Of a stretch of 64,000 nt of DNA, positions 28,801 to 64,000 are shown one piece after another (the first letter of the stretch is position 1; each line of letters opens with the position of its first letter). This stretch comes from Nymphaea colorata (taxonomy: Eukaryota > Streptophyta > Magnoliopsida > Nymphaeales > Nymphaeaceae): contig NC_045145.1 of the NCBI RefSeq assembly GCF_008831285.2, forward strand, positions 22,752,802-22,816,801. The letters are read 5' to 3'. A program made the translations under genes and the position numbers. The notes beneath the pieces are model-generated. The model was not told the DNA's origin. It ran no database searches and saw only the letters and a program-made list of their open reading frames with translations.

Positions 28801-30939
28801 GCTCTTGACACAGGGTGCAAGATGCCGATCTTGATGCAAAGCAGCTTGCAGTAGTTTCGGTTAGTCCTGAATTTGTGTTTGTGCTATTTTCTTTCCTTTT
28901 CCTTTTTCATTATTTTTGAATTTACATGTGCTTGTGGTTCTAATAAACTTGGTCTGCTTGTGCAGGGACTCTATGAATGGAGAGATAAGGTTGCCCGTGC
29001 AGAGGATGAGAGTACAGGCTATGTATTGCCAAATAAAATTTTGCTTGAAATCGGTATTCAAAGATCTCAATGCAGTTCCCTATATAGAAACTAGCAATGC
29101 AGTTTTTGTAAATTTGTACCTTCTTCCTTACATAAGTTCTTAGTTTCTGCTATTGTTTTGACTATCTTTCTTGTTTCTTTGAATTTAAAGCCAGGGAAAT
29201 GCCCGTCACTTCTAGGACTCTGCGAAGAATAATTAAATCAAAGCATACACTTGTTGAACATAATCTTGGTGCTGTTGTTCAAGTGATCAAGAGTTCAATG
29301 GAAAATGCAGCTGCTTTTGAAAGTGCTTCTGAACAATTGAAAAATGGGCGCATGGAAATTGTAAGACTCCCTTTTATCAACTTACAGGTGCGTATCTGTT
29401 TGATATCTAAAACTTGTTCTTATTTGACAGGTACGCCAGTTAAATGAGGAGACAGGAGTATCCAACCCTGAATCATTAGATGCTCCCCAGGACCCTACAA
29501 ATTTATCTCTTCAAACAATACGTAAAGGTAAGTGGTCTGTTGTTTTGGGTTATTTCTCGTTTGAGAGAGAGAAAGAACCAAAAATTCAGTTCAGTATTAA
29601 AAAAAAAAAATCCACCCTCAATGGGAACAGGATTTGAGTTTTACAATGTTGGCAACCTTCAGGTGAACCATTTTCTGGGCAATACTCGTCGGAAGATAGA
29701 TTACCTTCTGATTCAAAGGGGCTTGTATCCTCATTTGTGGCAACTCGTGATGCTGGGGGAATTAATCAGGTTGCGAGCCAGAGTCCACCTGAGAAGGTAT
29801 CAAATTTGCATTCAGGGAGGTTGAATGAGAGCACGGAGTCATTGCCACTGCTCAAGCACGTATGTTTGTTGGCTAATTCTTCTGAAATTATTTATTATGG
29901 TTGTTATTCTGCTTTAAGTTGTGTACTTCTGGTCTTCATGCCTTCATGGTATTGAACCAACTTTAATAAAATCTCTTTGCAGATCGATGTGGCTTCCATT
30001 CCTGTGCTAAAGAAACCAAGCCGGTCTTTTGGAGCATTGTTAGGAAACCCATTATCAAAAAGAAAATTGGGAGATGATTCGAAAGTACATCCTGCAGGGC
30101 AGGTAATAGATGAGGAGGAAAACATAATTCTCAGCATCACTTTTTTCTGAAGCACTGTGTTGTGTAAATTCTCTGGCTAACCTTTGAAATGAAAAAATTT
30201 ATTGCAATTGCCTATTCACTATCTACAAGGTGATTGCATTCTGAGAAATTGGATTGTTTTCTTTCACTTTCTGAAGGCGCATTCTGTGGTAGAACAAATC
30301 AAATCTTCTGTGGTCCTTCCATTCCACAAGTTCGCTGGTGAAAATGAACGCATTACTTCTGCACCGGAGAGCAGCATGGATGAGGTTGAAGCTTCACCTC
30401 TTCACGTTGAAGAACCCAAAATCGACAACTTGGCAGATATTATACCATTGGAAAATTCTCCAGAATTGTCATCCGAAAATTCATTGGCGGATAAAGAGAC
30501 TAAACACAGGGGATGGTTTCCACCCTGCATGGGGAAGACAGAGAGTGGACGTGGCAAAGATGAACAGATTGAAACAGCAGATGTTTCCATGTCAGATTTG
30601 TCCTCTAGTTTCAGAAAGTGCTTTCAATCTGTCACTCCAGAAAAACTTCCCAACAGCCAAGATGAGCGCTCACCATCTGCAAGTGATGACGGCTTAAAGT
30701 TTAAGCCTTTTGACTATGCTGCAGCGAGGCAACGGATGCAGCTTATCAATAATAACGATGCTCCCAGTTCCGAGGATAAAGAATGCAGAAATGGGGTCAA
30801 GGATTTCGGGAACTCTAAAAACAAGGCCAGCCAGCATGTGCGTCGACTAGCCGGAGAAGATGGAAAGAGGGATAATCGAGCACCAAGACGTAGGCAAGCT
30901 TTTCCGGCTTCGGGTAATCGGAGTGCGACATTTAGGTAG
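19889..30939 (+). CDS. RRP6L2: RRP6-like nuclear exosome 3'-5' exoribonuclease (EXOSC10 family)
   Basis: This is a catalytic cofactor of the nuclear RNA exosome that trims and degrades rRNA spacers, snoRNA precursors and aberrant transcripts. Fifteen exons: 19889-20530, 22792-22947, 23422-23580, 24265-24348, 24937-25016, 26767-26817, 26928-27033, 28649-28731, 28814-28859, 28966-29053, 29191-29360, 29431-29527, 29663-29859, 29983-30102 and 30277-30939. All are GT-AG with consistent phases, total 2742 nt (913 aa). Exon 1 encodes the PMC2NT region, which binds the RRP47/C1D partner. The DEDD-Y exonuclease residues are present: D268 and E270 (VDLEH), D327 ([12 protein letters not shown]), Y392 and D396 (YARED). 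The HRDC domain lies at about residues 470-555 ([18 protein letters not shown]). The tail is long, charged and disordered, with a conserved [10 protein letters not shown] motif near the end. Full length and the tail favour the RRP6L2 class over RRP6L1, but a tree would be needed to be sure. Confidence 0.94.
23990..24180 (+). repeat. Dispersed repeat copy in RRP6-like intron 3
   Basis: This T-rich segment ends in a recognisable module at 24129-24179 that begins CCCGGTAAAAATCCCC and continues through CCGAGAACAATATTTGTGGC. The same module, in the same orientation, appears at 58835-58886 inside a SEC8 intron, and T-rich sequence before it is also alike. The two copies therefore belong to one dispersed, probably transposon-derived family. 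Class unknown. Confidence 0.65.
25650..26040 (+). repeat. Tandem repeat, about 177-bp period, in RRP6-like intron 5
   Basis: The words TGCAAACTTTSTAGCAC, AAAGTTATTNGTCTACACTT and TTGACTGACTTGTGTTTCAA recur in order in two units offset by about 173-177 bp. A partial third start (GAAGTGCAAAGTTTGT) lies at 26025-26040. The copies are diverged and non-coding. Confidence 0.85.
28201..28330. repeat. Homopolymer T and G tracts in RRP6-like intron 7
   Basis: A run of about 19 T residues is followed shortly by an almost pure run of about 14 G residues (28226-28241) and then further G-rich DNA with many GGG triplets up to about 28340. The G-rich strand could form a G-quadruplex in RNA. No gene lies here; it is inside the 1.6-kb intron. 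Confidence 0.7.
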
Positions 30940-41645: not shown

Positions 41646-43344
41646 GTCACCCCTTGCTTCTTGGCCCCTGCTCTGTCATTCGCTTCTCTTTGCCCACGTT
41701 CGATCCACCGAATGAGAGGCAACAACCGCAAACTCCATTTGGTTTGATTGGGGCTCCGTGAGACTGGCTCAATTCTGCTAGATTATTGGTCTTGTATAGG
41801 TGGCCTTGGTGAAGAAGCTGACGGCAGATTGACTCGGCCTCTCCCATTGGGCAGATGGCCTTCGTGCATATAATCATCTCTCCTTGCTCCAAAGTCTATG
41901 ACCCATGAATTTGGAGCGGCCAAACTCATGCCAACATATAATGGGTCTGTTTGGCAAACAGCGCAGTATGAAACTATTTTTTCTTGATATTTTTGTTTAA
42001 TTTTTTCTTTTCTTTTGCTTCTGGTTGCGTTCCTTGTAGCTTTCATATCATGCTGCCATTAGCGTGGTGTGTGCCTAAGAAAATGAAAGACAAGAAGCAG
42101 AAGCAGAGCAAGGATTCACGAGAGGGCGAGGGCCATGAGGTAACAGGTAGGATTGTCTTGTCCGACAGGCGAAGGGTGGGAAGGACGTCGCCGTCTCCCA
42201 ACCCACGAATTCTGTGTCATTAAATATTGAGGGGAAGGAAGGAGTGGGAAGTGCTAGCTGTTTCCTTCTCGTGGGGGAGAGCGCGGTTTTTCTTTTACAG
42301 TAAGAAGAGAGCGCCGTGGGTATCACTCCTGCAATTGAATGAAAGCAACTGGAAGATGAAGAAGTCTATAAACAGGTTAATCAACGGGCCAGCTGCATCA
42401 ATTAGGACTGGAGATTCCATTAATTGCATCAAACCAGTACTTGGGTGGCCTTCATCAAACATGAATCTCAGTTTGTGGGTGGGCAATTGACCACTTGGTG
42501 GCGATGTGCTTGTGATGAACAAAATTATGGTAACAGTTAGAGAGAGAGAAAGAGAGATTATGTGTATAATATGGTTTAAAGTTTATGAAGTTGCCATGAA
42601 AAACATAGGCTTAGTTGGGGATAGAGGATATCTTAGTAAGTGGTTCCAAACCTAACTGACGTGCGGCTAAGGGTCCTGCCGGCCACTCTTTCCCTCCGCC
42701 CCTGTTAGGGCTAAGACCGGTCACTTGTTTCTTGTTGACTAGCAACAAAATATACCAATGACTGTACATGCATGTACAGTTTTCGAATAAATTCCCACTT
42801 TCTCTTTGAACTTTTTCCTCTTCCTTATGTATTAATTTTCTTTGTTAGTTGTAATCGACAATGTTTATCATTATTTTCCAATAGTTTTCATCTGCCGCAG
42901 GCCAAGCTTTAGCTGTTGTAGCATTGGATTTCAATGGTAAGAAGATAAGCAAGTATTGAACTCTCCTAATTAATTTACCTGTGACACAAGATCGTTTGAT
43001 GGTGGTCAGGTGCCGGTTGCTTTAGCCTGCTGATGGCAACTAAGACGCCTCCCTTCCATCCGTAAGCCGGATCTCCAAACTTTCTGCTGCTTCATTTTCC
43101 CTTCTCCCTCTGCAAAATCAGACCAACATCATCACACATTTGTAAACTAAGATCTAAGCTGAACAGATATTGATTAATCAACAAATCAGCTACATCGGGC
43201 TTTTCTGTCCATGAAACTGAAAAACTTGGGGACTGATTGGGATAGGTCTTACTTTTTGCTGCCCAGCTTCTGTCCTTAGGTTTTGATAAGGATGCCAGCA
43301 TCATGATAAGGATCGTTTGGAAAGGATCATGGCAAAAATCAAGG
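41646..43344. other. Intergenic, no gene seen
   Basis: This is mixed-composition DNA with short frames on both strands and no recognisable product. A GA tract lies at about 42540-42556. Nothing else could be supported. Confidence 0.45.
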
Positions 43345-43989
43345 TGATGGATTATGGAAACAGTTACAACAAAAAATCAAGGAACGGTTTTGTTGATAAT
43401 AAATATTTTGTAACAGCTCCTTAAAATAAGGAGTTATCTCATCTGTAATGCCTATATAAGGGATTGGCATACTTTGTCAATGTCAAGGCCAATGGCCTTC
43501 CGTGGGTAAAGAAAATATGCTCCACATTAATCTCCTAAGTTCTTTTATGTTATTGCTTTATGTTTTTCAACATGGTATCAGAGCAGGATGCTTGAAGAAG
43601 AAGATCAAAGCCCAAAGATGGCTTGCAGACGGCCAAAGAGATCGCTGCTTTCTTCATCAAAGCGAGGACTCGATCCTGTGAACAAAATATTCAAAAATCA
43701 AGCTTGAGATTTCTGAATTGCTGCCAAAGCATGAAATGCCTCCACAAAATCTCAATCAAGGTGATGGATTATGGAAACAGTTACAGCAAAAAATCAAGGA
43801 ACGGTTTTGTTGATAATAAATATCTTGTAACAGCTCCTTAAAATAAGGAGTTATCTCATCTGTAATGCCTATATAAGGGATTGGCATACTTTGTCAATGT
43901 CAAGGCCGATGGCCTTCCGTGGGTAAAGAAAATATGCTCCACGTTAATCTACTAAGTTCTTTTATGTTATTGCTTTATGTTTTTCAACA
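43345..43989 (+). mobile_element. TRIM-type miniature LTR retrotransposon
   Basis: Two direct repeats of 228 bp each (43345-43572 and 43762-43989) begin TGATGGATTATGG and end TTTTTCAACA, giving the TG...CA ends of plant LTRs. By hand comparison they differ at five positions (about 98% identical). Directly after the left LTR is TGGTATCAGAGC (43573-43584), the classic primer-binding site complementary to initiator tRNA-Met. The 189-bp interior has no gag or pol coding capacity, so the element is a terminal-repeat retrotransposon in miniature that needs enzymes from an autonomous relative. Each LTR has a TATATAAG box (43453-43460 and 43870-43877) and a small CTCCTTA-aaa-TAAGGAG hairpin. No matching 5-bp target-site duplication flanks it. 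Both LTRs are instead preceded by ATCAAGG. Confidence 0.9.
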
Positions 43990-45900
43990 AGTCCATGGAT
44001 TTATCGTACCGATTATTCCAATTTAAAGATGCAAGAAAGGTTGAGTTTCAAAAAAGTGTTCCATACATATATATTAAAAACATCGTGAACTATATACAGA
44101 TTGGACACTTCAATTGAAACTTAGAGAGTCTCACACTTAACCTTCAGATCTCTGAGATGAACCAGAACTAGTGAACTGCATGATTCTTCTTCCTCCATTG
44201 ATGAACGATTCGATCCTCCTCCGCTTGAGAGTTTCTGAAGTCTAAGCTCCAAGCCATGGGGCTGGAGCTCGATCCTGTTGGCAATTTATGAAACGATGCT
44301 TTCCAATCATGTCGATGAAATTGAAGTAGGGAGCAAATTAAGCAGACATGGTTTGGAAATTAAGCAAGGCAGACAGTAACTGACAATGGCAGAGCCATCA
44401 CCTGGCAAAAAAAGTATTCTAGACTTAGCTTCACTCTCCCAATAGCCTCCCTGCTCCATACCAGCTAGCCCTTTATCCTTCACTGATCAAGCTATCTCTT
44501 CCCTTTTTTATTCTCCTTCCACCTTCAAAAGGGGAATATTCAGTTTTTCTGGTGTTCATATATTCGGATTCGAATGTTAAAAGGGACACGCTGTCCAAAT
44601 CTAAATTCACAAATTGAAATCCTATCCAAATCTAATTTTTAGAATGGTATCGGAATCCAAATCTGAGTTTCAAACCAAATCCAAACCACAGTCTAGAAGT
44701 TAAATTTTGTCTGATCCAAATTTAGATTTGACCACTTATTAAGTTAAATCTAAATCAGAGTCGGATTAGATATCATTTTTAAAAACTGAATCCAATTGAT
44801 TTGTTAATCAGATATCTAATAGGACAGAACAGGAAATGGGTGCTTTAGGTTTGAAATGACCAAAAAGCCCTTCATGCTCGAACTATAAATGCTAATTTGA
44901 GTCCAATCACATCACATGTCATCGAATTAAGTCCAAGTTGGTAAAGGACGAATACAATCTAAGAAATAACTATGCACTGCGTTGACCAAGTCAGGGAATA
45001 ATCAATTACCCTTTTAACACAACGATAATCCAATAGTACAACGATAATTCAATCAGCCTAAAACATGAAAACTAAGCCGATTCGTTCATGATCAAATTTG
45101 AACACCATTTGAGCCAATGCGTTTAGTGTATAAATTTTCTATAGTACACATTTTTAATTAAATCAAACATTGTCGTTGATAAAGATGATCTTTATATTTA
45201 GACTTTGAGGTCACATTGATGCACTAAAAAAATATTACTTGAGACTATAATCAAACTTAAGAATGAAAAATAATGTGACTTAGATTTCGATTTGTACAGC
45301 TCCAGTTCTAAATTACATATGCGACAAAATCGAGCACTAGAATAGCTGCGTCTCAACTTCTATAGCTTGAAAGATGAAATTGTCCAGCTACAATATTTTT
45401 TTTATTTGTATTTTACAGATACTAACTTCTTTACATATACACATATATGTAAACCTCGCAAACCTTTGAATAAAATATAGTATAAAAATTTTAAAAGTTT
45501 TTTTTTTTTTTACCTTATTGTGTTTTTTGAATGTGAGTTCAGTTTAGTCCTAATCAAATTCAACCCACAAAACCCAGCCCCCAATGAAAAAAAAAATTTG
45601 GCTCCACCCTAGACATGTTGACTTAAAAAAACAAAATCATATGATTTTGCAAAGTGTCCCACTTCGCAGGGTTGAATGTGTAAATTTCAAAGTTTTTAGG
45701 CAAAAACGAACAGTGTTATTTTAGAGAAAATAAATAAACGAAGAAAAAGCGCTTGGGCGGAGGAAATTAAAGAGTCAGACCAAAACGACGGTGGGACCCA
45801 CAGCCGTCCTCCCACACCGCTGGTTGGTGGCCCTTAAAAGGGTGGGGAGCCCACGAACGTAAGCCCAAGAGCAAACGCCCGAGCGTCGCCTCCCTCTACC
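43990..45900. other. Intergenic with decayed repeat words
   Basis: The stretch 44560-44830 is built of degenerate CCAAATCTAAAT/GGATTCG words, typical of decayed transposon DNA. The rest is AT-rich and without a recognisable gene. Confidence 0.4.
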
Positions 45901-46079
45901 TCTTGGCTTCCCCCCACCTCATCACTATAAATATCAACTCCGACCTTCTTGCCCTCTTTTTCCTCCCACTTCCGTCTTTTCACCGCGTCTGCCTCCGACT
46001 TCCGTCATTGGATTTGACGGGGTCGCCGGAATCTGGCCCGGCAGCTTTTGCGTCGCCAGCTGTCAGCAGACCTCGAGGT
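45840..46079 (+). promoter_or_regulatory. Orphan TATA promoter with spliced-leader-like first exon
   Basis: A sharply GC-richer segment contains CACTATAAATATC (TATA box at about 45926-45932) followed by a pyrimidine patch rich in CTCTTTTTCCTCC and CTTCCG. About 150 bp downstream is a strong donor, CCTCGAG|GTGAGC, at 46077/46078. The segment between TATA and donor contains no ATG. This is the architecture of a plant Pol II promoter with a noncoding first exon, but no downstream coding exon was recognised on the plus strand. It may belong to a long noncoding RNA, a MIRNA host gene or a lost gene. Confidence 0.45.
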
Positions 46080-48712
46080 GAGCCTCTGAGTGCGTCTTTC
46101 CTGCCTTTCGTCGCTTCTTTTTACTATGTCCGTGCGCAGATCTCGATTCTTTATGGGAGGGGAAGACTCCGTTCTTTATGGGAGGGGTTCTTCGCCTGAA
46201 CGTTTCTCGGGGTTTCTTTCTCGTGTCGCCGTGCGATTGCTTTGGCGAGGTAGGCGCGGGGATTAGAAAGGGAAGGCGCGGTCCCGGGTTCTTGGATTCT
46301 TTGAGTCTTGGATCTTGCCGATGAGTTCTTGCGCGGTCGCGCTAATGTGGCTTCTTTCCTTTTCTTGATCTTTCATGAAAATGAAAAGGGCCTTTTCATT
46401 CCACGAATCTAAGAGAAGGACTAGACATGCTTCTACGTTTCCAGGCCCACTACCAAACATGGAACCTGGCTGCGGATAGCGGCTCTCTTTCTCTCTCCCT
46501 CGTACTTCTATTTCTCTCTTCCTCCCCCCCTTTGTTTGGCTTTCGTTTTCATTTTCTTTGTCGCCTGCAGCTTCAGATATCTGTGCCGGTGGAAGTGCAA
46601 CATCAAACATCAGATATCTCTGGTCTTTGTCTCTTATTGAAGTGGTATGGTTTTTGTCTCTTAATGCCCACAGAATATCATTTAATCTCATGAATGGAGT
46701 TACTTTCATGCGTGGTGGTATAATTTAGTCTGGAGTCACTTTCTGTCTTACAAGCATTTGCAACATGAAGGTCATGTTAAGCTTAGCCCATCTTCATTTT
46801 AATTTGAAAAGAAAGGAAACCCTTAGTGGACTGAGACGTTCGTGGTTGTAGCGGATGGGCCATTCCTGCCTGCTCCATCAACTTCCTTGCCATTTCAAAG
46901 CAAACTCTGTTGCTACTCGAGGCTTGTCACCTGAGTGGGAGTGAGGGTGACGCGGCCGCCTTAGTTGAAGAAGATGGTGTGAGCCAGAAAGAAATGCACC
47001 GATCGCTTGGGAAGGTCGGGCGGATCTGGGGTTTTAATAGTAATATGTAAACGATTGGTGTTCTGTAATTTAAATACTGTGGTACACGATCAAATTTTAG
47101 CACTTCTCATCCTTAATTAATATGGTGCTCCTTGCCTCAAAATAATGCATTTGCAGTTAGTGTTCGTTTGCCTGGCCTGAGTGTTCGGGACACCTTGTCT
47201 AATCATCCCAAACTCGCTAGGACCTTCTGTTCAAATTGCAGGGATGAAGCCAAGGTGGGAGTCAGCCCCAGGAAAATGGGAACTAATTAAGACCTGACGT
47301 GCCCCCAGAAAAGCGTGGGCTTCAGTTACCACTTCTAAGCTGGTTTAGACTCCAAACCAAGCAGCACAGCAAACTGGTCAAATTTGGTATAAGGAGGTTG
47401 GGCGGCGAAGGAGACGACTCCATCGCTTCCGGCGACAACTGAGAGAGAAAGAGGAAAATGTTTTTGTGTTGTTTCCTTCACCTTTTCTTCTCTCTGTTCC
47501 TTTTTACTTTATATATTTTAATTTATGTAAATGGTAAAAAAAGCGACCGCCCTGAACACTCTGTTCTATCCTCATTTCAGAATCCCATGTTTTCCTCCTC
47601 TTTTTTTTTGTTCGTCTTTGTTATCTATTTTCTTGTCAACTACTAATCCACATGTTTGACATTGGACCAAACATATGTATCACCGGTTTGGAGTCTAAGA
47701 GAGTTTTGCTTCTAGGGGTCACAAGTCAAAGCCTAATCTGAGATGTAAAACCAAACAGTCTCAGGTTACCAACCTGCATCATATTATTTTATTAATATAT
47801 ACCTTCACCGCATCACAATTTTTTGACTACGCACTGGTGACATAGATTTTTTCATCAATTTTTGTGCCATATCTCTATTCATGATGGAAGTGGCATTACT
47901 CTTAATCAATTTCATACATCATAGTACAAATTTGCTGAGTGATGATCTAATTTTCCTCATGAAACGTTTAAAGGACTACTTACACCAACTTTATGTTTGT
48001 TCTTTGCTGTCTGCTACTGGTCCGCATTCCATTGATGCATGATTTTATTATACGACACTTACAGAGATTTAATTGTCAGTAATAAAAAAAGTAAACTAAC
48101 TTTAGCACCTAAGGCTTTTGTCCTTAGTTAAAAGCATCGGCCATAACTTTATTTTTCCCAAGTTAGTAACGATAGTCAAAGATTACTATCTTACGCTCCG
48201 AAAAGAACATGATAGTTGTCCAACTTTAAAATTAATATACTGAAGACTTTCATGCATAACTTTCTGACATTGTGCAAAAAAGTTTCCCACTGACATTGAT
48301 ATTAAAAAAACTATTATTCACATATATAAGTATCTTATTCACCTTATCTCATGGACTCAGCTTCAGCTAATTAGTGACAATAACAGAAGATTTCATTGAT
48401 GAATAGCACATAATTTAATTATGCCTAAGTGTTTTTCAATCACATTGCCTAATCACTAGGCCGTGTTCTTTGAATCAAACTTCCGTTTATTTTATTATCT
48501 TAATTAGAAGCACATATTTAGCTCTAGCAGGAAGCTTTAAACTAAAGTTGTACACTTGGTAAACATAAGTATTTATAGTTTGAATGTCACATTTATACTT
48601 AACCCAAAATATATTATTGAATCATAATACATGGATGTTGGGGTGGGTGTTGCTGAGCAGGATAACCAGAGGAGTACAAAAGAACCATCTGGCTAATTAT
48701 AATCCTTGTCAA
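46080..48712. other. Intergenic, possible noncoding transcript body
   Basis: Sequence downstream of the orphan promoter. Composition falls back to AT-rich after about 47450. Frames of up to 148 codons occur on both strands but carry no known motif. No conserved microRNA hairpin was confirmed. Confidence 0.35.
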
Positions 48713-49215
48713 AACTAGCACATCTGTCTGCAATAAATGATATCTTGTCTGCACCAACAGCAAAAGCCCCCACAAATGCACAGTTAGGACCTGAAAAATG
48801 GTAGTTATATGTTATTTCGCAACGCAGTGTTGCCACGAACCGAATCGCCCGGTAAAGTACAGCTGCTCAATTACTCACTAGTAACCTGAAATTTCACAAA
48901 AAAAAAAAAAACTTAGTGGTCTTCCTACAACCGTCTATATATGCATATAAGGGATTCAATCTACCAAAATCCAAGTTATTGGGAAAGAACTATATGTTAA
49001 ATGAAAGTTGTTTGAAAAAGATTGAATTTTATGACACGATTGGGGGAAAAAAGGCTACTAATTCCACGGCACAAACTTGGGTGAAGTAGAAGCATCTGTT
49101 CAAAAAATTATGGAGAGAATTTGATGACAAATTTGTGAAAAAAAAGGAGTACTAATTCCATGCTAAAATTGGGTGAAATAGACACATCTTTTCAAAAATG
49201 TGTAGGGAGATGAAA

Positions 49216-49809
49216 TTAAGAGTCGAGGACACAGATATTAGACTCATATATACTTCTTGGCAGTTGAAGGATGATGAGATGAGCCATGTCTGTTCCGACG
49301 GCAATCATCAAAGAGAGTTGCATAAGGACTATAGAAATCTTCATAATTTGGTTTCGACGGCCCTTATTAGTTCCAAGTCCCATAAGAGGAGTAAATATTG
49401 AGAGCGCATTCGCTGATAAAAAGAACGAAAGGATGAGCAAGCGAATCACCGAAATCAAAGGGAAGACGAGCCAATCCACCGACAACTTCTCCACGAAGCA
49501 AATCTGCAGAAGAATAAAAATACCAGAGAACTGTATGGGCATATAGATTTTTACAACAGACTTAAGTGGGAGACCCTCCTCTCTTTGGTTCATCATCGAA
49601 GAGGAATTGTGCATCAATTCGGGAGCGATCTCTATGTTTGCTTCTGAGTTTGGATGTAAAGGCTCAAGCACAATTTCTTGCTGCTGCGGTGTTGTGGAGG
49701 GAGGCACAGGTGTTGCGCCAACAAGCTGTGAAATAATTATCACAGTGGCTTTATCCCATAAGCGTTTTAGAAACCATAAGCTTTTTAGAAAAGAAGCAAT
49801 GATAGACAT
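49216..49809 (-). CDS. Hypothetical membrane-protein-like frame, left arm of the inverted duplication
   Basis: From the first ATG (49809) this frame runs 197 codons and reads outward from the centre of the inverted duplication. The N-terminal third is Pro/Gln/Glu-rich. The rest is strongly hydrophobic with two or three probable membrane segments (around IQFSGIFILLQICFV, LVFPLISVIRLLILSFFL and ISIVLMQLSLMIAV) separated by a short GTNKGRRNQ loop. I do not recognise the family. The sequence may be one exon of a former multi-exon gene, because an acceptor-like CTTTGCAG sits in the loop between the arms. Whether it is expressed is unknown. Confidence 0.35.
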   Translation of the reverse strand: MSIIASFLKSLWFLKRLWDKATVIIISQLVGATPVPPSTTPQQQEIVLEPLHPNSEANIEIAPELMHNSSSMMNQREEGLPLKSVVKIYMPIQFSGIFILLQICFVEKLSVDWLVFPLISVIRLLILSFFLSANALSIFTPLMGLGTNKGRRNQIMKISIVLMQLSLMIAVGTDMAHLIILQLPRSIYESNICVLDS

Positions 49810-49916
49810 TTTACTGTTGTCCGGTGGCGCAGAAACAAGCAAAGAGAAGCTATTACAGATAAATAATTTTCTCTTTCTCTCGTCTTTGCAGTAATGGCTT
49901 CTCTTTGTAGGTTTCT

Positions 49917-50531
49917 ATGCCACCGGACGACAGTAAAATGTCTATCATTGCTTCTTTTCTAAAAGGCTTATGGTTTTTAAAAGGCTTATGGGATAAAACC
50001 ACTCTGATAATTATTTCACAGCTTGTTGGCGCAACACCTTCGTCTCCCTCCATAACACCTCAGTAGCAGGAAATTGTGCTCGGGCCTTTACATCCAAGCT
50101 CAAAAGCAAACATAGAGATCGCTCCTGAATTGATGCACAGTTCCTCTTCGATGATGAACCAGAGGGAGGAGAGTCTCCCACTTAAGTCTGTTGTAAAACT
50201 CTATATGCCCATACAGTTCTCTGGTATTTTTATTCTTCTGCAGATTTGCTTCGTGGAGAAGTTGCCGGTGGATTGGCTCGTCTTCCCTTTGATTTCGGTG
50301 CTTCGCTTGCTCATACTTTCGTTCTTTTTATCAGCGAATGCGCTCTCAATATTTACTCCTCTTATGGGACTTGGAACTAATAAGGGCCGTCGAAACCAAA
50401 TTATGAAGATTTCTATAGTCCTTATGCAACTCTCTTTGATGATTGCCGTCAGAACAGACATGGCTCATCTCATCATCCTTCAACTGCCAAGAAGTATATA
50501 TGAGTCTAATATCTGTGTCCTCGACTCTTAA
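49917..50531 (+). pseudogene. Mirror copy of the membrane-protein-like frame with a premature stop
   Basis: This is the right-arm counterpart of the left-arm frame. It is alignable over the whole length, but a TAG at about 50063-50065 replaces a Gln codon of the left copy and interrupts the N-terminal part. From 50076 to the shared stop at 50531 the frame is open and differs from the left copy at only a handful of residues, including a Gly-to-Arg change near the C-terminus. Most likely a disabled duplicate. Confidence 0.55.
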
Positions 50532-51037
50532 TTTCATCTCCCATACACATTTTTGAAAAGATGTGTCTATTTCACCCAATTTTTGCATGGAATTAGTATT
50601 CCTTTTTTTTTCACAAATTTGTCATCAAATTCTCTCCATAATTTTTTGAACAGATGCTTCTACTTCACCCAAGTTTGTGCCGTGGAATTAGTAGCCTTTT
50701 TTCCCCCAATCGTGTCATAAAATTCAATCTTTTTCAAACAACTTTCATTTAACATATAGTTCTTTCCCAATAACTTGGATTTTGGTAGATTGAATCCCTT
50801 ATATGCATATATAGGCGGTTGTAGGAAGACCACTAAGTTTTTTTTTTTTTTTGTGAAATTTCAGGTTACTAGTGAGTAATTGAGCAGGTGTACTTTACCG
50901 GGCGATTCAGTTCGTGGCAACACTGCGTTGCGAAATAACATATAATTGCCCTTTTTCAGGTCCTAACTGTGCATTTGTGGAGGCTTTTGCTGTTGGTGCA
51001 GACAAGATATCATGTACTGCAGACAGATGTGCCAGTT

Positions 51038-52920
51038 ATGGGCTGTGTCCAACTCCAATCTAAACTCAGTCTAGGCTTGGTGGGTTTGAACTCACTGAGC
51101 TTAGTTCATACTAGCTCAAGCTAGGTTAGGTTCTGGGTTAATTATTCTATGTTCAACTGCGCTTGTTTCTAAGCTCAGAATTTCGTGCATGAGCAAGACT
51201 TGGGTACATGTGGCTAGAACTTAGGTTTACATGAAGAAGTGACATATAATGCATGTATTAAAGTTGGATAATTTTGTCCCTTGCATGAAAACCAAAATAC
51301 TTTGAGCTCTGTTTAGTAGATTTAGAACCAATCCTGCTAGTTTTGCCCTGGGCAACATGGGCAAGTCAGCCATAGCTCAGAAAATTTAAAATGGGGCTAT
51401 CACCTCGAGTCCTGGTTGGTTACAATGAGTGCTAGCCAAGATTGAAAACAGTAACTGATTTTGTCGGCATGTTTATCGAAACAGAAGGAAGAAGGATAAA
51501 AAGTACAAAGCAAACAAGAAAAGCATTGCAGTACAAGGATTTGCTATGCACTATGATATTTTTCATCTAGGTCAAATGGGTGCGGCTATGATTTGGGTAT
51601 GGATATGGAGATATGGGTATGAATACAGTAACTTTAGAAAAATATGAGTACAGGGATATGGCAGGATATATATATATATATATATACTCAAAACAACATC
51701 AAAAATCAAAATGAAAGCAACATTTAAATAAACAAGTCATATAAATAAAAACATTATAAGTTAAGGAACAATAGCTCTAAAAAACAGAATGAAAACTAAG
51801 TTAAAAAAAAAAATGAATCAAGTAAATTAAATAGTTTGGATCAGTATTAAGCTAAAAAGTACCCAAGTATATCCAAGGGTATGGTGACAAAAGGACGTAG
51901 ACCTTACTGAAGTACCTATATGACTTTGTTTTTCATATTTTGTAAGTCAAATTACTACAGAGGCTGTCGAATGAATAATGCTACTGCTCAACAAGCAACA
52001 TGGAAAATATTTTAGGATCATTTCTAATTTGGAGATGCTAAATAGCACAATTTTTTGAAAGTCTAGACGGACCTGGGCCTTCTTCAATTTGAAAACGTTT
52101 GATGCCATGTCACTTTAGCCAAGCATGTAGAGACCCGATCTCTGTGGGTAAGAAACAAATACCATTGACCAGTCATCAGCGTTTTGGTGCTCCTGTGCCT
52201 GACAATGTCAGGCAGTGCATCGTGTTGACTGGTTTCAGGCTTGCAGCAGGACGGTGTCCGTGGCAACCAGCATGCTAGGACGTCCATTCATAATCGTGAG
52301 CTAGTTTTGACTGACCAGAAGTCCAAGAAAAGTAGTTGTCTTGAGTCACCGGGTAGGTTGAGTGCGGAGGAGTGGATTTCGTTTGATTGAGCCATTGATA
52401 AGCTGCATATTGGCGTGTTGCCCCTTTCCCTGCTTGGTCTAGAGCGCAGAGGTATGTCTTTTCCGGCTCCGTCCTTAATTACATGCCATACTGCTCCTAC
52501 GCAATTACATTTGTGTGTCCCATGAATCTCTCTTGTTTGTGTGTGTGTGTTCAGAACAGAATAAAAGAAAATAGTAGGCTATGCCTAAAGATGCAGAGAA
52601 AGCAGCAGTCACTTCTTTTCTGACAGGGTGGAGATAAATTCACATTGATATTAACAAATAATGGCACATCATCTACATGCAGAAATGAAGTCAAAACGCT
52701 GAAAACAACCCAAAAAACAATTCGATGATGATGATCATGACAAGGATAAACCATCATCCTCTAGTAAAAAATAAAGACCACATTATACTATACACTGCCA
52801 AACGCTACAAAATTTAAGGGAACCCATAACAACAACAATCTCGTAGACACCATAGACTATTTGACAAACACATTGACGCTGACTCCCCTGACGCCAGCTA
52901 CTTGCTCGTCAAATTAGTTA
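51038..52920. other. Intergenic, SEC8 3' flank
   Basis: This is AT-rich DNA with a (TA)n tract at about 51666 and degenerate GGGTATGG words near 51590-51660. The GC-richer stretch 52090-52300 includes a perfect 8-bp hairpin, GCCTGACA-a-TGTCAGGC, and looks repeat-derived. No conserved gene was recognised. The SEC8 3' UTR should lie in roughly the last 300 bp. Confidence 0.4.
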
Positions 52921-55900
52921 TCACCGAGCAAAAATCTCAGATACACGCTGGATGGCATGTACAGGGATTTCTCTACCTGGGACGTTGACCTTTAAAAGGT
53001 TGGAAAACCTGTCAAGCATAACAGATGCAGAAATGCTCATTTCGCATTTAACTGAAGGCATGTAACAATAAAATAAAACAACAGTTTTCCCACTTACTCT
53101 GCTTCTGTGAACAAGTACTGGTGTTCTGAGATGAAAGCTAGCAACGCCTGTAGCATCATAACATTATGGAACAAAACTGGTGCAAAAAAAAAAAGGGAAA
53201 CATGGAAACTGCTGAAGTGAAAACTTTACCTCAAATGGTAGGTTCAGGAGTTCAAAATATGTCCGACTACGATCAAGCCTCTGTTGGACAAATTTGCCAT
53301 CTAACGATGGTATAGCAGCAAGTGCCTACAAAGACATGAACATGATATAAGTCGTGCATGGTCTGAAAAATGCGGAAATTATGCAATATCTAAAAGAAAC
53401 GTTCAGCTACCTTAAATCGATCTGCAATAGATTTAGAAACAGGCAGTCAGTTGTACATATATGCACTATATTTCAGCTGTCATACTTGAAATGTTCAACA
53501 AAATGCACAGGTGAAGCTCATCCTTTTGTTTTACCATTCAAAAGGGATTTATTGTCCTTGATCTGTTTTCCCATTTCCAGCCATTTAAAAGTCCCAGGAA
53601 TCAACAGGGTTGACTCTTGACTCAATCTATGCTTATGAACCTTGACATGGTATCTGGACAACAATACAGGTGCATCCTAGAAAAACTCTTAACACAGCAA
53701 TAAATCCAATACAGAGATACAAAATAACTGTAAATCCAATACATAAATACAACATAACTCTAACAATAGCAGTTGCAGAGTGTGAAGAACATTGAGATGA
53801 TTATTCCAATAAAAATGTATTATAGAGGTTATAGACTCCTAGTCCTGAGAATAATTTACCAAAGAAGCAACTTTTGGGGCGTGCAATTTCTGGTAGCATG
53901 GAGCTGGCAGTTTTTTTGGAAATAAACCTGTTAGCAGTGCTGGAACAAAAGCACATGGTGATAAGACTGGTCACATATTCATGGAGAACATGGTTATCAT
54001 ATCACCGATCATAGTCACCTAACAGCTGTTAGAAACCATGGGTCAGAGTTTCATTTTTTAGTCAGGTTTGTGAAATGTATTCATGATAATTTAGTTATAG
54101 AACTCATCTTTTGGACTGTGCTTTGACAACCAACAGTGGTGACTTTTAGACATGAAATTCGGGGTTGTTCCCCTGCCCTGTATGTCAAGCAAGTTGTGAG
54201 TCTTGTGACTAATGAGCGACTGACTTTTCAAGATCATAAAAGTCATACATGCATGTCATTATCATACTAAGCCATACATGCATTTCCCAGTCGTATAATC
54301 TCGTTAATTTCTATCCTTTCTGTAAGGTTTGCTAGTCTGGAATAAGAAAGAGGTCCAATATATTAAATAACTGAGACAGTATCAAAGAAGAACTGGATAG
54401 GACAAATTGCTACGAGTATATAGCATGCGTATGAAAGTTGTGAATACACCAACATGAAAACTGTAAATGCACCAAATGAAGATTAGGGAAATCAGAAGCA
54501 AAGAAGTGCAGTGCATAAGGATTCATTCCATATAGTATACCTGCTCCAATGCAATTGAATTGCGGCAAATCTGTTGAACTCCAAAAAGGTTGATGGATTT
54601 CATTTCAGCTAGAGCCTACACAATGAAAGTTTATGATTTCTTATAACATGGAAAAACATGTACTTAGTCATCAAAAAATAATTTATTTTAATTGAGAAGT
54701 AGAATAGTAGAGAAGACCTTGATTGACATATTTGCTGCAACACTGCATATTCCACCAAATATGTAGCTTCGTTTTACTTCTGCAACAAAGGGAGCAATTT
54801 CCTCATCCCTCCGTGTTATCTGCAAAAAAAATATACATTGGAAGAATAAATCTTTTCTCTTTGAAAATCTATTAACTAGAAAAACAAAGGCAAAAAAAAG
54901 ATGAAGTAAAACAAGTGATGCGATACTTACGCTCAAGAACAAAATTTAAATGCTATGACAGTTCAACTTGCATTTAAGAACACATTAGATGCTAATGTTA
55001 AATACAAGGCAACATATGAACATTCTTGAATTGAAGATTTAAGTACACAGTAAAGTATTATGCTTCCTTCACCACATGATACAGGAAGAGGATGTCTTGA
55101 GTAAACATAGTCAAGAGGATATAGGAGTGCCATCATTATTGTTTATAGATCTAATAAACTAATTGATGATGTGATGATGATCCTTGATGAATAATTAAAA
55201 ATAAAAGACTACGATCGATTAAGATTTTTTTTTTGTCATTTAAATTAATCATTGAAAAGGATCGATCATATGTCAAATGTGAAATGTAGAAACATATCTG
55301 TTAGTGCAACTTATTTCTTTCATTGACCTTAAAATTTGAACCTCCTGCTCTTAAATAGGTATTGCTTATTTGCTTTTTTCATCATAATATTCAATTACAG
55401 TGATTTGCTCCTCCTTTAAAATTGTTTTTACATGATAATAATTGATGTGCCTATGGGCAATGTTATTCATCGTACCTCATCAAATAAGGATGATCACTAT
55501 TCTTTTTTCTGGATTTCCATTGAAAACGTTTATGGGCAGCATGGTGTAGTCATGAAAGGGCTGTTAGCCTGTTAGTTCTATTAATCTTACCTGATATCGT
55601 TCTAGGAAAAGGTACACACTACACAGGGTTACGAACCATGTTTATGGCAGCATGGTGATAACTCCAATCATGAAAGAACTGTTAATTCTATTAGTCCTAC
55701 CAGTATAGGCATTGGAGGTGAGCCATTTGAGGAACAAATACAGAGGGCTGGTTTATATTGATCACATTGGAAAGTTGTGATCTTTTGCTGGTGTTTGTTG
55801 TCATTGTAGTTAAAATAAGAAAACACAATAAACCAGGTTAACACCATATCAGCTGATATTGCAGCAGGTCTGCATTGGCATGCACCTCGCTACAGTGAGT

Positions 55901-57845
55901 AATGGATATGATGCATACCAGCTGATACTGATACATGTTGACACTGGAAGCGATAAGCATCAGTGCTCACCAATCAAGGAACTTTCATTGCTAAAGATGT
56001 CATTCATAAAGTTACCTCTTTGTCCAAAATGGCTGGTGCTTAACTAAAGTGCAGCTGGTTTTTCCAACAAATTAACGCAGAAGATGGATGAGAACAAATA
56101 TCAGATCTGCAGGATTGGTCCATGATGCTATAATACCAGCCTCTAAGATTTTTTTTTTTTTATCTGAACATGCAGATACTATCCATGTATTTTGATGGTT
56201 GCCTTTAATCATGAATTCCGCAGGTTCCTAAAGGAACCAGAAGAAAAGAAATAATGCATCAATTTTATATTAAAAAGCACGAGTGCAACTTTAACTTTCT
56301 ATTAGGTAGTATGGCACTGATAATAGGCTAATAGCACAATAGTTGGGGATTTGATCTGTGAGATAGAACTAAAGATGAAACAAATTCAATTTACTAGGAT
56401 CACTGGATCCGTGACCTGAATGATGATCCTATTGGTCCCAGTTCCAGCACATATTAAAAAAAATTCACAGAAATATATGAAGTGACATCGCTACAAGAAT
56501 TTTCATCCTCCTCATAAAATGCGTTTAAAAAAAATAATGTTCTCCAAACAATCTGTTGCATGCATGAATTTAGCAGTAAGAAGAGAGTAAAAAATTGAGA
56601 AAATAGTTAAATACCAACAAAGTATCATTCGATGGATGAAAATGAAAAAATATGGGATATGTTGGTTTTTCTTCCTTATTTCAATCCAACTTCAAGAATG
56701 TGCAGTAAGTATGACATATGAAGTTCATGAGTAAATAATATTGCTTTCAAACCTGCGCTGTCAATGAAATGACAAAATCATCCGGCTCTTCAGCATCTTG
56801 ATCCTCTAAGTACTCCCTACCAGCCATTTCCTGCCACCATACAAGTTGGATCAAGCAAAAGATGCAAGAAGAATGTCCAGATAGAGAACGTTTAATAAAC
56901 AAAAGACACCAAGAAAAGAGATTCTAACCTGTAAATGGAAAATGGTCTCCAACTGCATCTCCACACGTAAGACCTTAAGGCATTCAATGGACAAGCTTCT
57001 ATACTCGTTGGCAAGAGAAGCAAGGCTTTTTGTGAGTGGACCACTTTGTTTATTATCCTCAGATAAAGGATCAGAGCCACTTTTTTCTGGCTGACTTGTT
57101 GATCTTGCTGAGTTCTGCCCAAGCCTATTTTCCAAGTGCAGTTCATTCATTTAACCACATAAATCAGCCCAGAAAACTAGTCATTTTGAAGTAATAGAGG
57201 AATTGACTCTTTTTGATTGAAGAACTTGGACCTTGGAATCAGATTTTTCTTTTTCTTCTCTACTAGAGAATATGAACTAACTTAAGCATGATGCAGCCAA
57301 AAGAGTGCAACATCATTTAAATCAAAAGATGAACCCATTTAATATAAGATTCTGAACATATTTTGTCATATTAAAGGAGATCCAATTTGCAGTCAAAAGG
57401 GTGCAAATGCAGCATGTATAACGGAGGAGAAGAAAACATTTGTTTGATATATCATGGAAAGATGAACATGTTTACTATGTCAATGACAGCCTTTAATCTA
57501 TGTCACAAGGGTGCGGAATGCGGGTGTTGGCATAGATGTAGATGTGGGTGCAGCGAGGATGTATATATATGTGTGTGTATGTATATAAATCATTTGTTAC
57601 ATAGTTATTTAACTGTTTAGTAGCTTTATTTATCTAATTACATATTAACTTTTTGTATTAGAGATAGTTTAGTTATGTGAACATTTAAAATGGTCAGTTT
57701 TGACCTGGTTCGACTAACCAAACTGGATGTGCTGTGTTGAAGAAACACCAGCACCAGCGTTGACACGGGTGCGGCAGCCATTTAGAAGCACCGATGTGAC
57801 ATAGCCTTTAATTGAAATAGAAGCCACAAACCTCCAACTTACCAG

Positions 57846-57886
<41 letters not shown>

Positions 57887-60800
57887 TGAAGGGTGAAAGG
57901 AAACAAAACTATGTTGTTGACTGATTTAGTACCTTTCAATAGAATCTGCCAAATATTCTAGTGAGTCACTGAGAGAAGCAAGCAGAATAAACTTATGATC
58001 ATCACGAATAAGATTCTCCTGCTCAAAGAGAAAGAAAAGGAAAAAAAAAAAAGGAACCAGATAAGAGAAATGCATGGATATCAATGCTAGAGGAACTAGA
58101 TAAGGAAAATAAATTCATGAAGCTAATGTTATAAGCATTTCTATTCATGAAGTTAATGTTATAAGCATTTATAGAAAGAGATAATAGAAGATATAACTGA
58201 CAAAAAGGAAATTGAATTCCTTACTCACATATCTTCACCAAGTTTTCAATATCTCGTATTGTTTTTTTGTGAATTATTTACAACACATTCATTGTGAAGC
58301 TGTGATGTCATTCTCAAAATCTTGCTCAGGTTGAAGAAACTGTGTGGAGTACTCTTTTGTTCTTTAAGATGAACTCGTAAATTTTCTGTCAAATGTAACA
58401 GATCTCGACATTAATGTAGACGCAATGCGTGAAGCCTGACTGGTTTCAGAACAGGGAATTCATTCGGGGAATCCCTACATATACTGCTGACCAGAAAACA
58501 CGTCTTTTTGAAAAAAACAAAAAAAAGCGATAAATTAAATGGCAGTTTAAAACTTTAAAAAATGCGTTTTTTTGAAAAAAACGTTAAAAACGAAAAAAAA
58601 ATTGTTTTTAACGCGTTTTTTCTTGTTTTTTCACTTCTTCATTTTTTTCAGTTTTTTTAATGCCAAACAGTTTTTTTTTATTTTCTATTTTTCATTTATT
58701 GCAAATCTACTTATCTTTTGATGTTTGTGTTACTAGTTTTTTCTCACTTATTTTATTTTCCCCCCATTTTTAGTTTTTTAAAATTTTTAAAAATTTACTG
58801 TAATTTCCCTTTTTTTTAAGCTCGCCGTATTATACCCGAAAAAAACCCCACCGTTTAAAACTCCGAGACATTATTTGTAACTATGCTGATGAGTGATCTT
58901 GGATTATTTAATAATTAGATTAGCCAAATACTTGATTGAAACCCATATTATGCATGATATATGGTTATTAAATAAGTAGTAAGCTCATTATTGATTCATT
59001 GCAGATATATGAAAACTTTTTGTTGGTGGTAGACATATAATTACTTATAATTCTTTTATTATTTATAATTTTTACATAAACTAAGATTTCCTATAGAAGA
59101 TAATAATTTGAAAATCTCCAAAACTTTTCACTCTTGAGAAATTAAAAAGAAAAATGCAAGACTACCTGCTTGATTGGCAGCAAATTCAATAGTAGATTAC
59201 TTAGTTCCATCTCCAACTCAACAGTTTCTGCATCTGAGCCATATTGCTCAAGGATTCCCTGGCCGGATGAACTAGACAAACATGCACTCGCTGGTTCATG
59301 CTTCATAAGGTTCTCAATATCTTGCCTCCCCATAAGCTTGTAGCTTTGTTTTTCTAGAACTGCCTGCAGATTTTTTTTTTTATAAAGAATAGTTACTTTA
59401 GATTTGCATCAAATAGTGGCTTTCCCTAGTAACCAATATCAACAACTTCGTAGTATCATAAAGAAAGATGCAACATGCAGGACACATTCATGGCAATGAA
59501 ATGGTAATATTACAGTTTAATATTACAGTTACCATTTTAATATTTCAGATTTCTGGGTAAGATGCTAGCAGAAGGGATCAGTATATAACTTCTGCTTGAA
59601 TTGAACGGAACTATGCACAATAAGTTCAATAACTGTACATCAGGACCCATGTGTACAGCAGTTACTTTAAAGGCACATGTAACCAAAAATAAATGATGCC
59701 CAAAAGACCTTCTATATCCCTGAAAGTTGAAACACTTGAAATGCAAACATGACAGTTGTACAACATATCTTCATTCAACATATTTACATTTATAAAAAAC
59801 AGTACTTCAAAAATACCACTTAAATTGAAAATCAGACACTATTTTATTAAATTATTGACAAAATGTTATGATATTTTTCCCTCGCCTTGCTTTTTGAAGC
59901 AAAAAAATGCTCAACAGCCTGCACTTTACTAGAGTTGGTGTGCTGCTACATCACATGGAAATTTCTAAGCATAAAGCGTCAATGACTTACTTCTCTGGTT
60001 GTGCCAAGCATCCTGTTTATCTTTGGGAAAAAACTTCAAAGTCACTTCACAATAAACACATCTAAACATTTGATAAAAACATGCTAGATTTTTTACTGCC
60101 AACTAAAAAGACCAAAAAGTTTAATTCTGTTAAGTCAGCTCTTTAACTAGTAAAAAGCTACTATTTTACCCTTAAAAAGAACAAGAGAGTGTATGTAACT
60201 TTGACAATTTCTCTTATATAAGGAAAAAAAAACCCCTAACTGATTTTGATATAAATTAAAAAACAGTTAATTTGGATGTAGTTAAACATGTATTTAATAT
60301 TATTTGGTAAAGATAAATAGGCCAATGCAAATTATTAAACATAAAATTTATTATATAAAGGGTATTTTAGTCAGTTTGTCTCTTTAGCCCATCTTAAGTT
60401 AGTGTCAATCTATGGTCAAGTGACAGGTTATCTTTGATTAGCAGTGCAGGACATAGGTATCGTTTTAACTTTTAACAATATAAAAAGTTAGTTGCATTCT
60501 TATTATTGCCAAATATTTAGGATGTTTTGAAAATTTCCCTTTCCCTTTTTCTGATTTCATACAAAAAAGGAGGCTGCCCTCTTTCTATCAAATCAGAAAG
60601 AGAAAAAAAGAAGGTGGGTATGTACTATGGAGGTGCTGCCCCTCTTTCTGTCCTTTTGTTTAGATGAGAAATGGAAGGACTTTGTACACTATTTCCTTTT
60701 CTAATCTCTTATGGATTTAATAGCTTCAACAAATAGTCAATAAAAAAACTGCTATATAAATACACATACAGCAATCATCTTAGTGCCCATGCAACATAGT

Positions 60801-63140
60801 TGTGCAGACAAATTTTGTGAAAATAAAGAAGCTTCGACAAGTGAAGGACCCTGCTCATTTTCAAAGTGCAGGAGAGTGGAAGGTCTTTCTTCTTTTTGCC
60901 TCCCCCTACAGGACTATCCCTATATAAACACATTATCCTTGTCATTGTAATGTTCATAGTTCTTATATAACTATTTTGTAAATAATTCTCATACTAACTG
61001 ACAATTGTACTCTCTTTCTCAAAAGTCATCCTTAAGATATTAAAACTGTAAGAAAACCCCTAGTAAATGGCTGCATTCAATATGGCCCTTCTTCATTCAG
61101 ATTAATGTGTCAATCCATTGGTACAACTCAAAAATCTAACAAAAATAGATGCTACATATTGTTAATGTGCTTTTCGAGGACACTAAATATTTTCTGTTTC
61201 ACAGCTATAGTTGTTTGGTTCACATATAAAAAATGCAATAAACTTTTATTATGTAAGAACAACAATCTCAAATATTGCAGATAGGTTGAGTGCTCTACCT
61301 CCATGTATGAGGTTCGACAACGTTCATAGGCACGCTCGAGGAAAGTTTGTACATACTCCACAAGTTCACCAGCATATTTTGGCATTGCTTGTGCCCAACA
61401 AAGGACCTGGAGAGATAAATTGATTCTCAGACACTAATTGAAATTCCATTATACAGAAATTTTCAATGATCAAATCCTACTGCGTGGGTGGGAAAATAAT
61501 ACGATATTCGAATAATTAGCTTACTAAAAATACCTCCTTTGCCAAGAAGTCAATAGCCAAAAGACCCTGAAGTACAAGCCGCCCCTTACTGACTATGGGG
61601 GTATAAGCAGATGTAGCATGTGTCCTTGGTCTAAAAGCAGCAGGACCTACATAAATTTACAAAACTATATGAGATTTTATACCGCCACTTTCATACATCC
61701 ACTACAAATATGTAGAGTTCCAAATGCCCGATGATCAAATATATTACTAACAATATGATGGAATCAGAAGTATTTTCAAGTTTTAACATTTAAAATTGCC
61801 GAACAAATTAGTTCCAAAAATGTGCTTTGATCAGTCACAAAATCTGCACATAACATTTTCGAAGCTAGTTATATACACCACCTCCATGTATGTAATTTCA
61901 TGCGCCATTTTAAGTATGACAAAAAAGCTCATAATTAATACAAAAAGAAACTTTTTGTAGGGATAAAAAAGAAAATCACAAAAAGAAGATTTAGAGATTC
62001 GATAAAGGTAAAATTTGTCAGTCCGTATATGCATATCGTTATGACCAATATACCTCTTCAAGCAGTAAAAAAACATTTTCATTTTTTTGTCCCGCTTATA
62101 GCGTTATCTCATTATCTCATAGATATTTTATTATCTCATATTTACGTATAATGTTACCTTGTAGATCCGTCCATTATCTCATACATATTTTATTATCTCA
62201 TAAACATTATCTCATACTTATGTTTAGCGTTATCTCATGCATCCTTCTGTTATCTCATTATCTCATAAATTTTTTGTTATCTCATAAACATGATCTCATA
62301 CTTATGTTTGATGTTATCTCACACATCTGCCCGTTCGTTATCTCATAATTTTTTTGTTATCTCATAAACATTATCTCATACTTATTTGTTATTTCATACC
62401 TATTTGTTATCTCATGCACATGTATATGCAATGTTTAGACATGAAAGCAAATGTACATGTTGGTAGTAGGGTCCACCCCCAGCATACGCTAGTTGTGTAC
62501 GCCCGATGGCACATGTAACTCGGTCTCTAACATTTTAAGGAAACTAGTTCTTGTGATGAAAATCTTACCAATATGTGAGCAGATACATCAAGAATAATGA
62601 ATACAAATACATAAGTATATTCTCTGTCTCTCTCTCTTTCTCTGGCGTGCATGTGCGCATGGATGTGTAGATAAATATGAAGGGAAAACCACTAGAAAAG
62701 GTATCAAGAAATTGCATGATAAAATTGTGATCTCAAGAAAGGCATACATTTTGAAGCAACTATATTTGGAAAAGCACTTTACTAGGAATTCGGCTTAATG
62801 GAGGCACAATGAAGAACATAGAGTTTACCACACATGTCCATGTGGCATTCAAATTGTGAAGCATCAAGAAGATGTACACTAGTGTACTCCTTAACTATGC
62901 ATTTGCATCCTCAAATGCAAAAAACTTGTCAAACACTAATAAGGTTCATCTTCATTTGGAATGGATCTTCAATTTTCAATGTTGCACTTAATAATGGGAG
63001 AAGTTATTGTACTTTTCATGCTTACACACGAATACTCACTTGATATGGCTTGCTGTACGCATTTCCTATAATCCACAAACATGGCTGGCAAGAAGTGATC
63101 CTTCAAGAAGTTCTCTACAAATGCTTGCAGGCCATCATTG
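52921..63140 (-). CDS. SEC8: Exocyst complex component SEC8 (EXOC4), C-terminal part; 5' exons beyond window
   Basis: SEC8 is a core subunit of the octameric exocyst, which tethers secretory vesicles to the plasma membrane in tip growth, cell-plate maturation and wall deposition. Twelve minus-strand exons are visible: 63140-63040, 61646-61534, 61406-61299, 59363-59166, 58018-57933, 57124-56929, 56830-56753, 54819-54718, 54615-54541, 53325-53230, 53147-53098 and 53008-52921. All junctions are GT-AG and phases agree throughout, giving about 429 residues ending at a TGA (52921-52923). Diagnostic stretches include NFLKDHFLPAMFVDYR, GRLVLQGLLAIDFLAKE, YVQTFLERAYERCRTSYME, SLSDSLEYLADSIERLGQ, NREYL-like GREYLEDQDAEEPDDF, KSINLFGVQQICRNSIALEQ and NLLKVNVPGREIP. 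Plant SEC8 is about 1050 aa, so roughly the last 40% is present. The most 5' exon seen begins mid-codon at 63140, and no further exon was recognised between there and the window edge. Confidence 0.93.
58486..58890 (+). repeat. A/T-homopolymer palindromic repeat in a SEC8 intron
   Basis: The left part is made of CG-punctuated A and T runs (GCGTTTTTTTG, CGTTAAAAACG) with a perfect stem CGTTAAAAAC/GTTTTTAACG at 58582-58591 and 58604-58613. It ends in the CCCGAAAAAAACCCC module (58835-58886) shared with RRP6-like intron 3. The whole looks like a transposon relic. No coding capacity. Confidence 0.6.
62100..62420. repeat. Degenerate ATCTCA minisatellite in a SEC8 intron
   Basis: About 320 bp contain roughly 16 copies of ATCTCA, usually as TTATCTCATA or GTTATCTCAT. 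They are arranged in higher-order blocks such as TTATCTCATAAACATTATCT and CATACTTATGTTTA, which recur about every 60-90 bp. It lies in the intron between SEC8 exons 63140-63040 and 61646-61534. Confidence 0.9.
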
Positions 63141-64000
63141 CTGTAACACTAGAATAAAATTCCTCAGGTACACGCTCAATAGGAAAATGTCTTCAAACAG
63201 GAAATGAAAATCCCAGGACTATTCACAGAGATTCATATTACAAATAAAAGAAATGTATAGCAGTAGAAATTTTGCACGTTTCACTAGCATTTTAACATGT
63301 GAGCAGCACATGTTCCTAATATGACAAGCTTGTCAATTAATCCATGAATTAAAATTTAGATAACCACTGAAAAGAAAACTGCTCTAAACTATATCAACAT
63401 AACTAAGACCTAGAAATACAAATGACATCCAGAAAGAAAAAGAGAAACCAAAACATGATGCACGCTCACTTGAACAGTTGTCAATTAGTTTCTAAGGCAG
63501 TAAGGTGTCAAGCCATGTCACATGAACATGGGTAAATAGCCAACATGCTTGTGCCAACACAGTTGGATGTGGGTGCAGATGTAGACTTTGATTCAACCCA
63601 GACATGGTCAACACCGTGTTGAGGACAGTCTCTATACCCACACTTTTTTGTCCAAACTTGGTCCTAGTCAAGTCTGATCAGATCCAGATTTGTCCATTTC
63701 TTTAGAGTTCAAAGAAATTAAAAGAGGGTTGCGGCCATCTTCTTCTTCCGTCTTCCTCTATTTACTCTTCCTTTGTCTCCCCCATAAGCACGAAAACATA
63801 TTCAGTGCTAGCAAAACATCAGATCTGGCTCTCTCTCTCTCCCCTCTCTCTCCCTCTCTGGGTCTTCATTAACGACCCTTCATCACTCCCTCTCAAAGGT
63901 TTCAGACATTCTGAAATTTGAATAACAATTTTTTCTTTTTAACCTTCTTGTTGCAACAATTTCTGTGTTTCAAAGTGCCTGCAATGCTAGTTTCTCAGTT
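63141..64000 (-). other. SEC8 intron sequence to window edge
   Basis: This is the upstream continuation of the SEC8 gene. I could not recognise a coding exon here. A (CT)-rich tract occurs at about 63829-63858. GGATGTGGGTGCAG-type words at 63560-63590 resemble words at 57520-57550 and are probably repeat-derived. Confidence 0.5.

Follow-up and report, generated by a model that had tools for sequence, protein, structure and literature searches.

Within the 64-kb stretch of Nymphaea colorata DNA analysed here (the window), positions 48710-51040 form an inverted repeat of two arms and a loop, a palindrome that is real and belongs to a known kind, any function of which is putative. The explanation that best accounts for the whole, and towards which we lean modestly, is that a gene fragment was duplicated locally in inverted orientation and later homogenised in part; the locus would give rise to siRNAs of the endo-IR class if it is transcribed. 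The first-pass annotation had placed an inverted duplication at 48713-51037, with arms of about 1.15 kb and a loop of about 30 bp; the coordinates agree with ours to within three bases, and the arms and loop measure 1147, 1150 and 34 nt (Table 1). Its description of the arms as near-perfect was overstated, as local alignment of one arm against the other yields 1101 identical columns out of 1150 (95.7%), and the share of aligned windows that are perfectly paired is 511/1127 (~45%) at 24 nt and 556/1130 at 21 nt. The 46 mismatches comprise 32 transitions and 14 transversions, the three gaps are each of a single base (two of the three in A-runs), and the K2P distance between left and right arm is 0.041.

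Table 1. Features of the palindrome, in window coordinates
Feature	Coordinates	Strand	Description
Left arm	48710-49856	.	1147 nt; from inverted-repeat listing and arm alignment
Loop between arms	49857-49890	.	34 nt
Right arm	49891-51040	.	1150 nt; reverse-complement copy of left arm
Tandem duplication within arm	49024-49198	.	two ~83-nt copies, 77% alike; mirror copy 50550-50725
18-bp tandem repeat inside frame	49756-49791	.	mirror copy 49956-49991
Middle zone of left arm	48805-49574	.	10 of 770 sites mismatch right arm
Left-arm frame	49216-49842	-	208 aa from TTG; reads outward from loop
Right-arm copy of frame	49911-50531	+	in-frame stop 50064-50066; open remainder 50067-50531

Inverted pairs of at least 40 nt number 45 in the whole window. 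Among the longest 25 of these 45, which were examined, the top four are pieces of the palindrome, and the remaining 21 are matches of 40-53 nt in AT/GA-rich simple sequence. The palindrome is not a chance match. The arm-to-arm match covers the full arm length and its ends coincide; comparison of the 2-kb flanks on the left and right detected no relatedness (best match 17 nt, E 0.041). The ~83-nt and 18-bp tandem repeats are present in both arms, and thus probably predate the inverted duplication.

Divergence between the arms is zoned, with 8 mismatches in the outer 95 nt, 10 in the middle 770 nt and 28 in the inner 282 nt. None of 300 permutations reached the likelihood ratio of this two-break partition, and the longest mismatch-free run between the arms, 214 nt with gaps ignored, has a p value of 0.0034. 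The simplest reading of the zoning is that gene conversion between left and right arm homogenised the middle zone; alternatively, the arms could be mosaic from the start, in place of a single event followed by conversion. Plant substitution rates are 1.5e-8 to 6.5e-9 per site per year, at which the K2P distance corresponds to some 1.4-3.2 million years, a figure that is rough because the arms are zoned.

Both arms contain the unrecognised frame that the first-pass annotation had described as that of a membrane protein; it is membrane-protein-like, with several hydrophobic stretches in its C-terminal half. A longer version of the left-arm frame spans 49216-49869 (217 aa, P0001), and the stop-free run to which it belongs, 49219-49914, crosses the loop. 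Within the left arm this run extends over 212 codons, a length that 1 of 2000 arm shuffles attained; when only the inner 657 nt were shuffled, 0 of 2000 attained the stop-free run. Left and right frames are separated by 8.5 synonymous changes and, with those to stop codons included, 23.5 non-synonymous ones, giving a dN/dS of 0.82 over 209 codons, so that no clear constraint on the frame since duplication is apparent. A conserved protein encoded in the arms is unsupported, given this ratio and the stop in the right copy.

Searches with the frame returned little. Pfam gave nothing at or near cut-off for six arm frames (best DUF2706, E 0.16), and the PDB gave three matches only, all at chance level (E 0.73-0.83), with no meaningful relative in either. 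A similarity of 16 residues between an arm-end peptide and three HisF or HisF-derived PDB chains (best E 0.014) was dismissed as chance; against the best HisF-type chain, each matching stretch alone has an E value of 53. AlphaFold, run on the single 217-aa sequence, returned a helical model of unusable confidence (mean pLDDT 48, pTM 0.26). Pattern matches to the 217-aa frame were found in 36 stretches of genome contigs and 7 of viral contigs, and no relative was confirmed among these prokaryote and viral collections, a result that says little because they hold no plant genomes. We infer that the frame is a decayed exon from a plant membrane protein that has not been described. A pair of divergent genes sharing one promoter was also considered and is unlikely, as the loop has 34 nt and the frames open within ~20 nt of it.

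In the origin that we prefer, a 1.15-kb unit with a decayed membrane-protein-like exon would have been duplicated locally and head-to-head in a single copying step that left the 34-nt loop, such as a fold-back or a template switch in the course of repair or replication, and the arms would have been partly homogenised afterwards. A possible though less probable origin is a foldback or long-TIR (MULE-like) DNA transposon copy, in which the TIRs would make up all but 34 nt and the transposase would lie elsewhere. Foldback and long-TIR MULE elements likewise have long terminal inverted repeats and almost no interior, and the palindrome resembles foldback elements in that the repeat spans the entire element with a tiny loop; MULE-type elements can carry gene fragments, and the arms hold a gene-like fragment. 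The palindrome seems, however, to depart from such elements in its ends, its boundaries and its copy number in the window. Its termini (CAAAACTAGC.../CATAACTGGC...) are not known to resemble any transposon end, in keeping with the earlier claim that known ends are lacking. The same holds for the claim that a clear target-site duplication is lacking: immediately beyond the arms, 1 of 9 bases is shared between the two sides, and the best near-matches in the boundary zones (8/10, 7/9 and 7/8 bases) belong to classes that occur in 156, 265 and 178, respectively, of 300 random window zone pairs. Near-matches resembling a target-site duplication are therefore at chance level, and an old, decayed one is possible. 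Neither blastn with the arms nor tblastn with three peptides from them found a second copy in the 64 kb, and no transposase domain was found by Pfam in the arm frames tested, a domain that a non-autonomous copy would lack in any case. Taken together, the full-length arm match, the unrelated flanks, and the lack of a target-site duplication above chance, of a Pfam transposase and of a second window copy favour local duplication over a foldback transposon. Should the unit prove to be dispersed in the genome, the transposon reading would gain.

That the palindrome is an assembly or sequencing artefact, in the form of a chimeric fold-back read, has a very small chance of being correct. Fold-back chimeras do produce short-loop palindromes of this shape, but they are expected to be nearly identical or indel-rich, whereas the arms here are neither identical nor distinguished by indel-type read errors; they show 4% divergence that is transition-rich and zoned, with three one-base gaps, and the flanks on the two sides are unrelated. 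The share of transitions among the mismatches (32/46), together with only three one-base gaps, argues for biological divergence and not read error, and on the kind and pattern of the arm differences an artefact is unlikely. Two independent insertions of one element are likewise unlikely, since the match extends across the full arms and their ends coincide.

The consequences of the palindrome for any transcript were assessed by RNA folding. The plus strand is predicted to fold into a 2331-nt hairpin with an energy of -2021 kcal/mol, in which 1118 inter-arm pairs make up a stem of 27 helices, the longest of them uninterrupted over 234 bp; the corresponding minus-strand prediction is -1985 kcal/mol with 1112 inter-arm pairs. 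For 20 dinucleotide shuffles of the plus strand the mean was -580 kcal/mol (SD 10). The first-pass annotation had stated that transcription would give a very long double-stranded RNA, and the predicted fold agrees, giving a kilobase hairpin if the locus is read through. As in the endo-IR class, the predicted stem is long, nearly continuous and intramolecular, and because of this long paired stem a dicer substrate would exist upon read-through. Members of the endo-IR class are transcribed across both arms and yield 21/22/24-nt siRNAs that are DCL2/3/4-dependent and RDR-independent. Judged by its arms and predicted fold, the palindrome is shaped like an endo-IR siRNA locus, and could yield siRNAs if it were transcribed. 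The 34-nt loop leaves hardly any room for a promoter, so RNA could arise only via read-through from a neighbour or from a cryptic promoter. A read-through RNA would fold into a double strand of ~1.1 kb, the duplex would be diced by DCL2/DCL3/DCL4 into 21-24-nt siRNAs of the endo-IR class, and these would act mainly on the palindrome locus itself and on close relatives of the fragment.

A neighbouring gene could supply such a transcript. Minus-strand exons at 52921-63148 resemble the 3' half of the SEC8 gene of the plant exocyst; the joined exon pieces gave no Pfam match near cut-off and no PDB support. The SEC8-like stop codon (52921-52923, minus strand) lies ~1.9 kb to the right of the palindrome, and the gene is oriented towards it. 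Between this stop and the palindrome the minus strand contains no AATAAA or ATTAAA, which may be a hint of read-through; beyond the far side of the palindrome, that strand carries AATAAA at 48496, at 48491 and at more distant positions. On the plus strand, a TATA-like motif lies at 48323 and an AATAAA at 51727. Motifs of this sort are weak indicators in AT-rich DNA. It is conceivable, at the level of a guess, that read-through from the SEC8-like gene would be the source of a hairpin RNA.

Elsewhere the window contains genes and further repeats. Its gene content, which includes a PPR-DYW protein, TFIIF alpha and a PMC2NT domain, marks it as plant nuclear DNA. The PPR-DYW frame (857 aa) lies in one piece at 31688-34261 on the plus strand, and just upstream of it, at 30202-30939 on the same strand, is a 245-aa open frame with no Pfam match. 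An open frame with a PHD finger occupies 20-1180 (minus strand) at the window edge, and 45771-46724 has open frames of 142 aa (plus strand) and 153 aa (minus strand), neither with a Pfam match. A 236-bp direct repeat (43337-43572 and 43754-43989), 97.9% identical with its copies 181 bp apart, possibly represents the ends of a small element. Diverged tandem arrays are located at 62105-62415 (~84-bp units, rich in TTATCTCATA) and at 25664-26038 (~177-bp units).

A scar of cytosine methylation in the arms was evaluated as evidence of silencing and was not retained. With transversions left out of the counts, 17 CG/CHG arm sites are changed and 118 unchanged, compared with 15 changed and 310 unchanged CHH sites, an enrichment of transitions at CG/CHG (Fisher p 0.004; zone-stratified odds ratio 3.1, p 0.005). 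Five other window repeats, pooled with 37 transversions left out, give a weaker result of the same sign (14 changed and 42 unchanged at CG/CHG; 33 and 172 at CHH), and CpG observed/expected is 0.69 and 0.61 in the arms versus 0.54 in the window. Because other repeats trend likewise and the arms are not CpG-poorer than the window, the enrichment, while present, is not specific.

Several described loci resemble the palindrome. According to two accounts, DCL2, DCL3 and DCL4, assisted by DCL1, process long inverted repeats in plants, and IR71 of Arabidopsis forms a ~3-kb dsRNA giving siRNAs (PMC12825306, PMC4687873). Like the palindrome, IR71 and the Arabidopsis endo-IR loci in those accounts are kilobase foldbacks far above the standard MIRNA stem (PMC12825306, PMC4687873). 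The palindrome differs in stem length (~1.1 kb versus ~3 kb for IR71), and IR71 is described there as being transcribed, with DCL2 and DCL3 as its main dicers, DCL4 as a secondary one and DCL1 assisting, whereas for the palindrome both steps are putative. In soybean, one report describes a 621-bp inverted repeat of the aquaporin NIP6-1 on Gm14 that gives siRNAs; this repeat and the CHS inverted repeat cluster of the I locus likewise consist of inverted gene pieces (PMC3534067). Related genes are reported there, as are ~400 unique small RNAs in or close to the region, and the loop is ~1000 nt, against 34 nt in the palindrome (PMC3534067).

Inverted duplication has also been proposed as the birth state of MIRNA genes, and the first-pass annotation had suggested this status for the locus. 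The palindrome would then be an early MIRNA founder whose hairpin silences a living membrane-protein gene family, a reading that we consider improbable. The model of Allen and colleagues, as relayed in a later source, starts from inverted duplication of a gene fragment and, as here, involves adjacent divergent copies of that fragment (PMC3237417); another source likens transcribed inverted repeats to proto-MIRNA loci (PMC12825306), and the arms would form a long duplex. Founder status calls for a living homologue and small RNAs, and a MIRNA gene for a precisely cut miRNA/miRNA* pair. The stem of the palindrome, however, is not shortened, and both a miRNA and a target gene are hypothetical. A published tool issues a warning and not a fail for plant MIRNA hairpins longer than 300 nt (PMC12594335), and the predicted hairpin, at 2331 nt, is far above that length. 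Moreover, no relative of the frame was found in the window, in Pfam, in the PDB or among the prokaryote and viral contigs, collections from which plant genomes are absent, and a scan of the whole window with Rfam gave no match at gathering scores. What stands of the suggestion is the fit of an inverted gene-fragment duplication to the model; the hairpin length makes the locus a very early candidate at best. We give still less credence to a lineage-specific silencing locus at an early stage, in which a decayed copy from an undescribed family of plant membrane-protein genes, duplicated head-to-head and part-homogenised, would form a hairpin via SEC8-like read-through and silence living members of the family. 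If correct, this would constitute a natural RNAi hairpin between an siRNA locus and a MIRNA gene.

It has been proposed that siRNA and MIRNA loci of plants are built from gene fragments duplicated in inverted orientation. If silent, this palindrome is ordinary genome debris; if transcribed, its measurable arm divergence would let the decay of a long foldback be watched.
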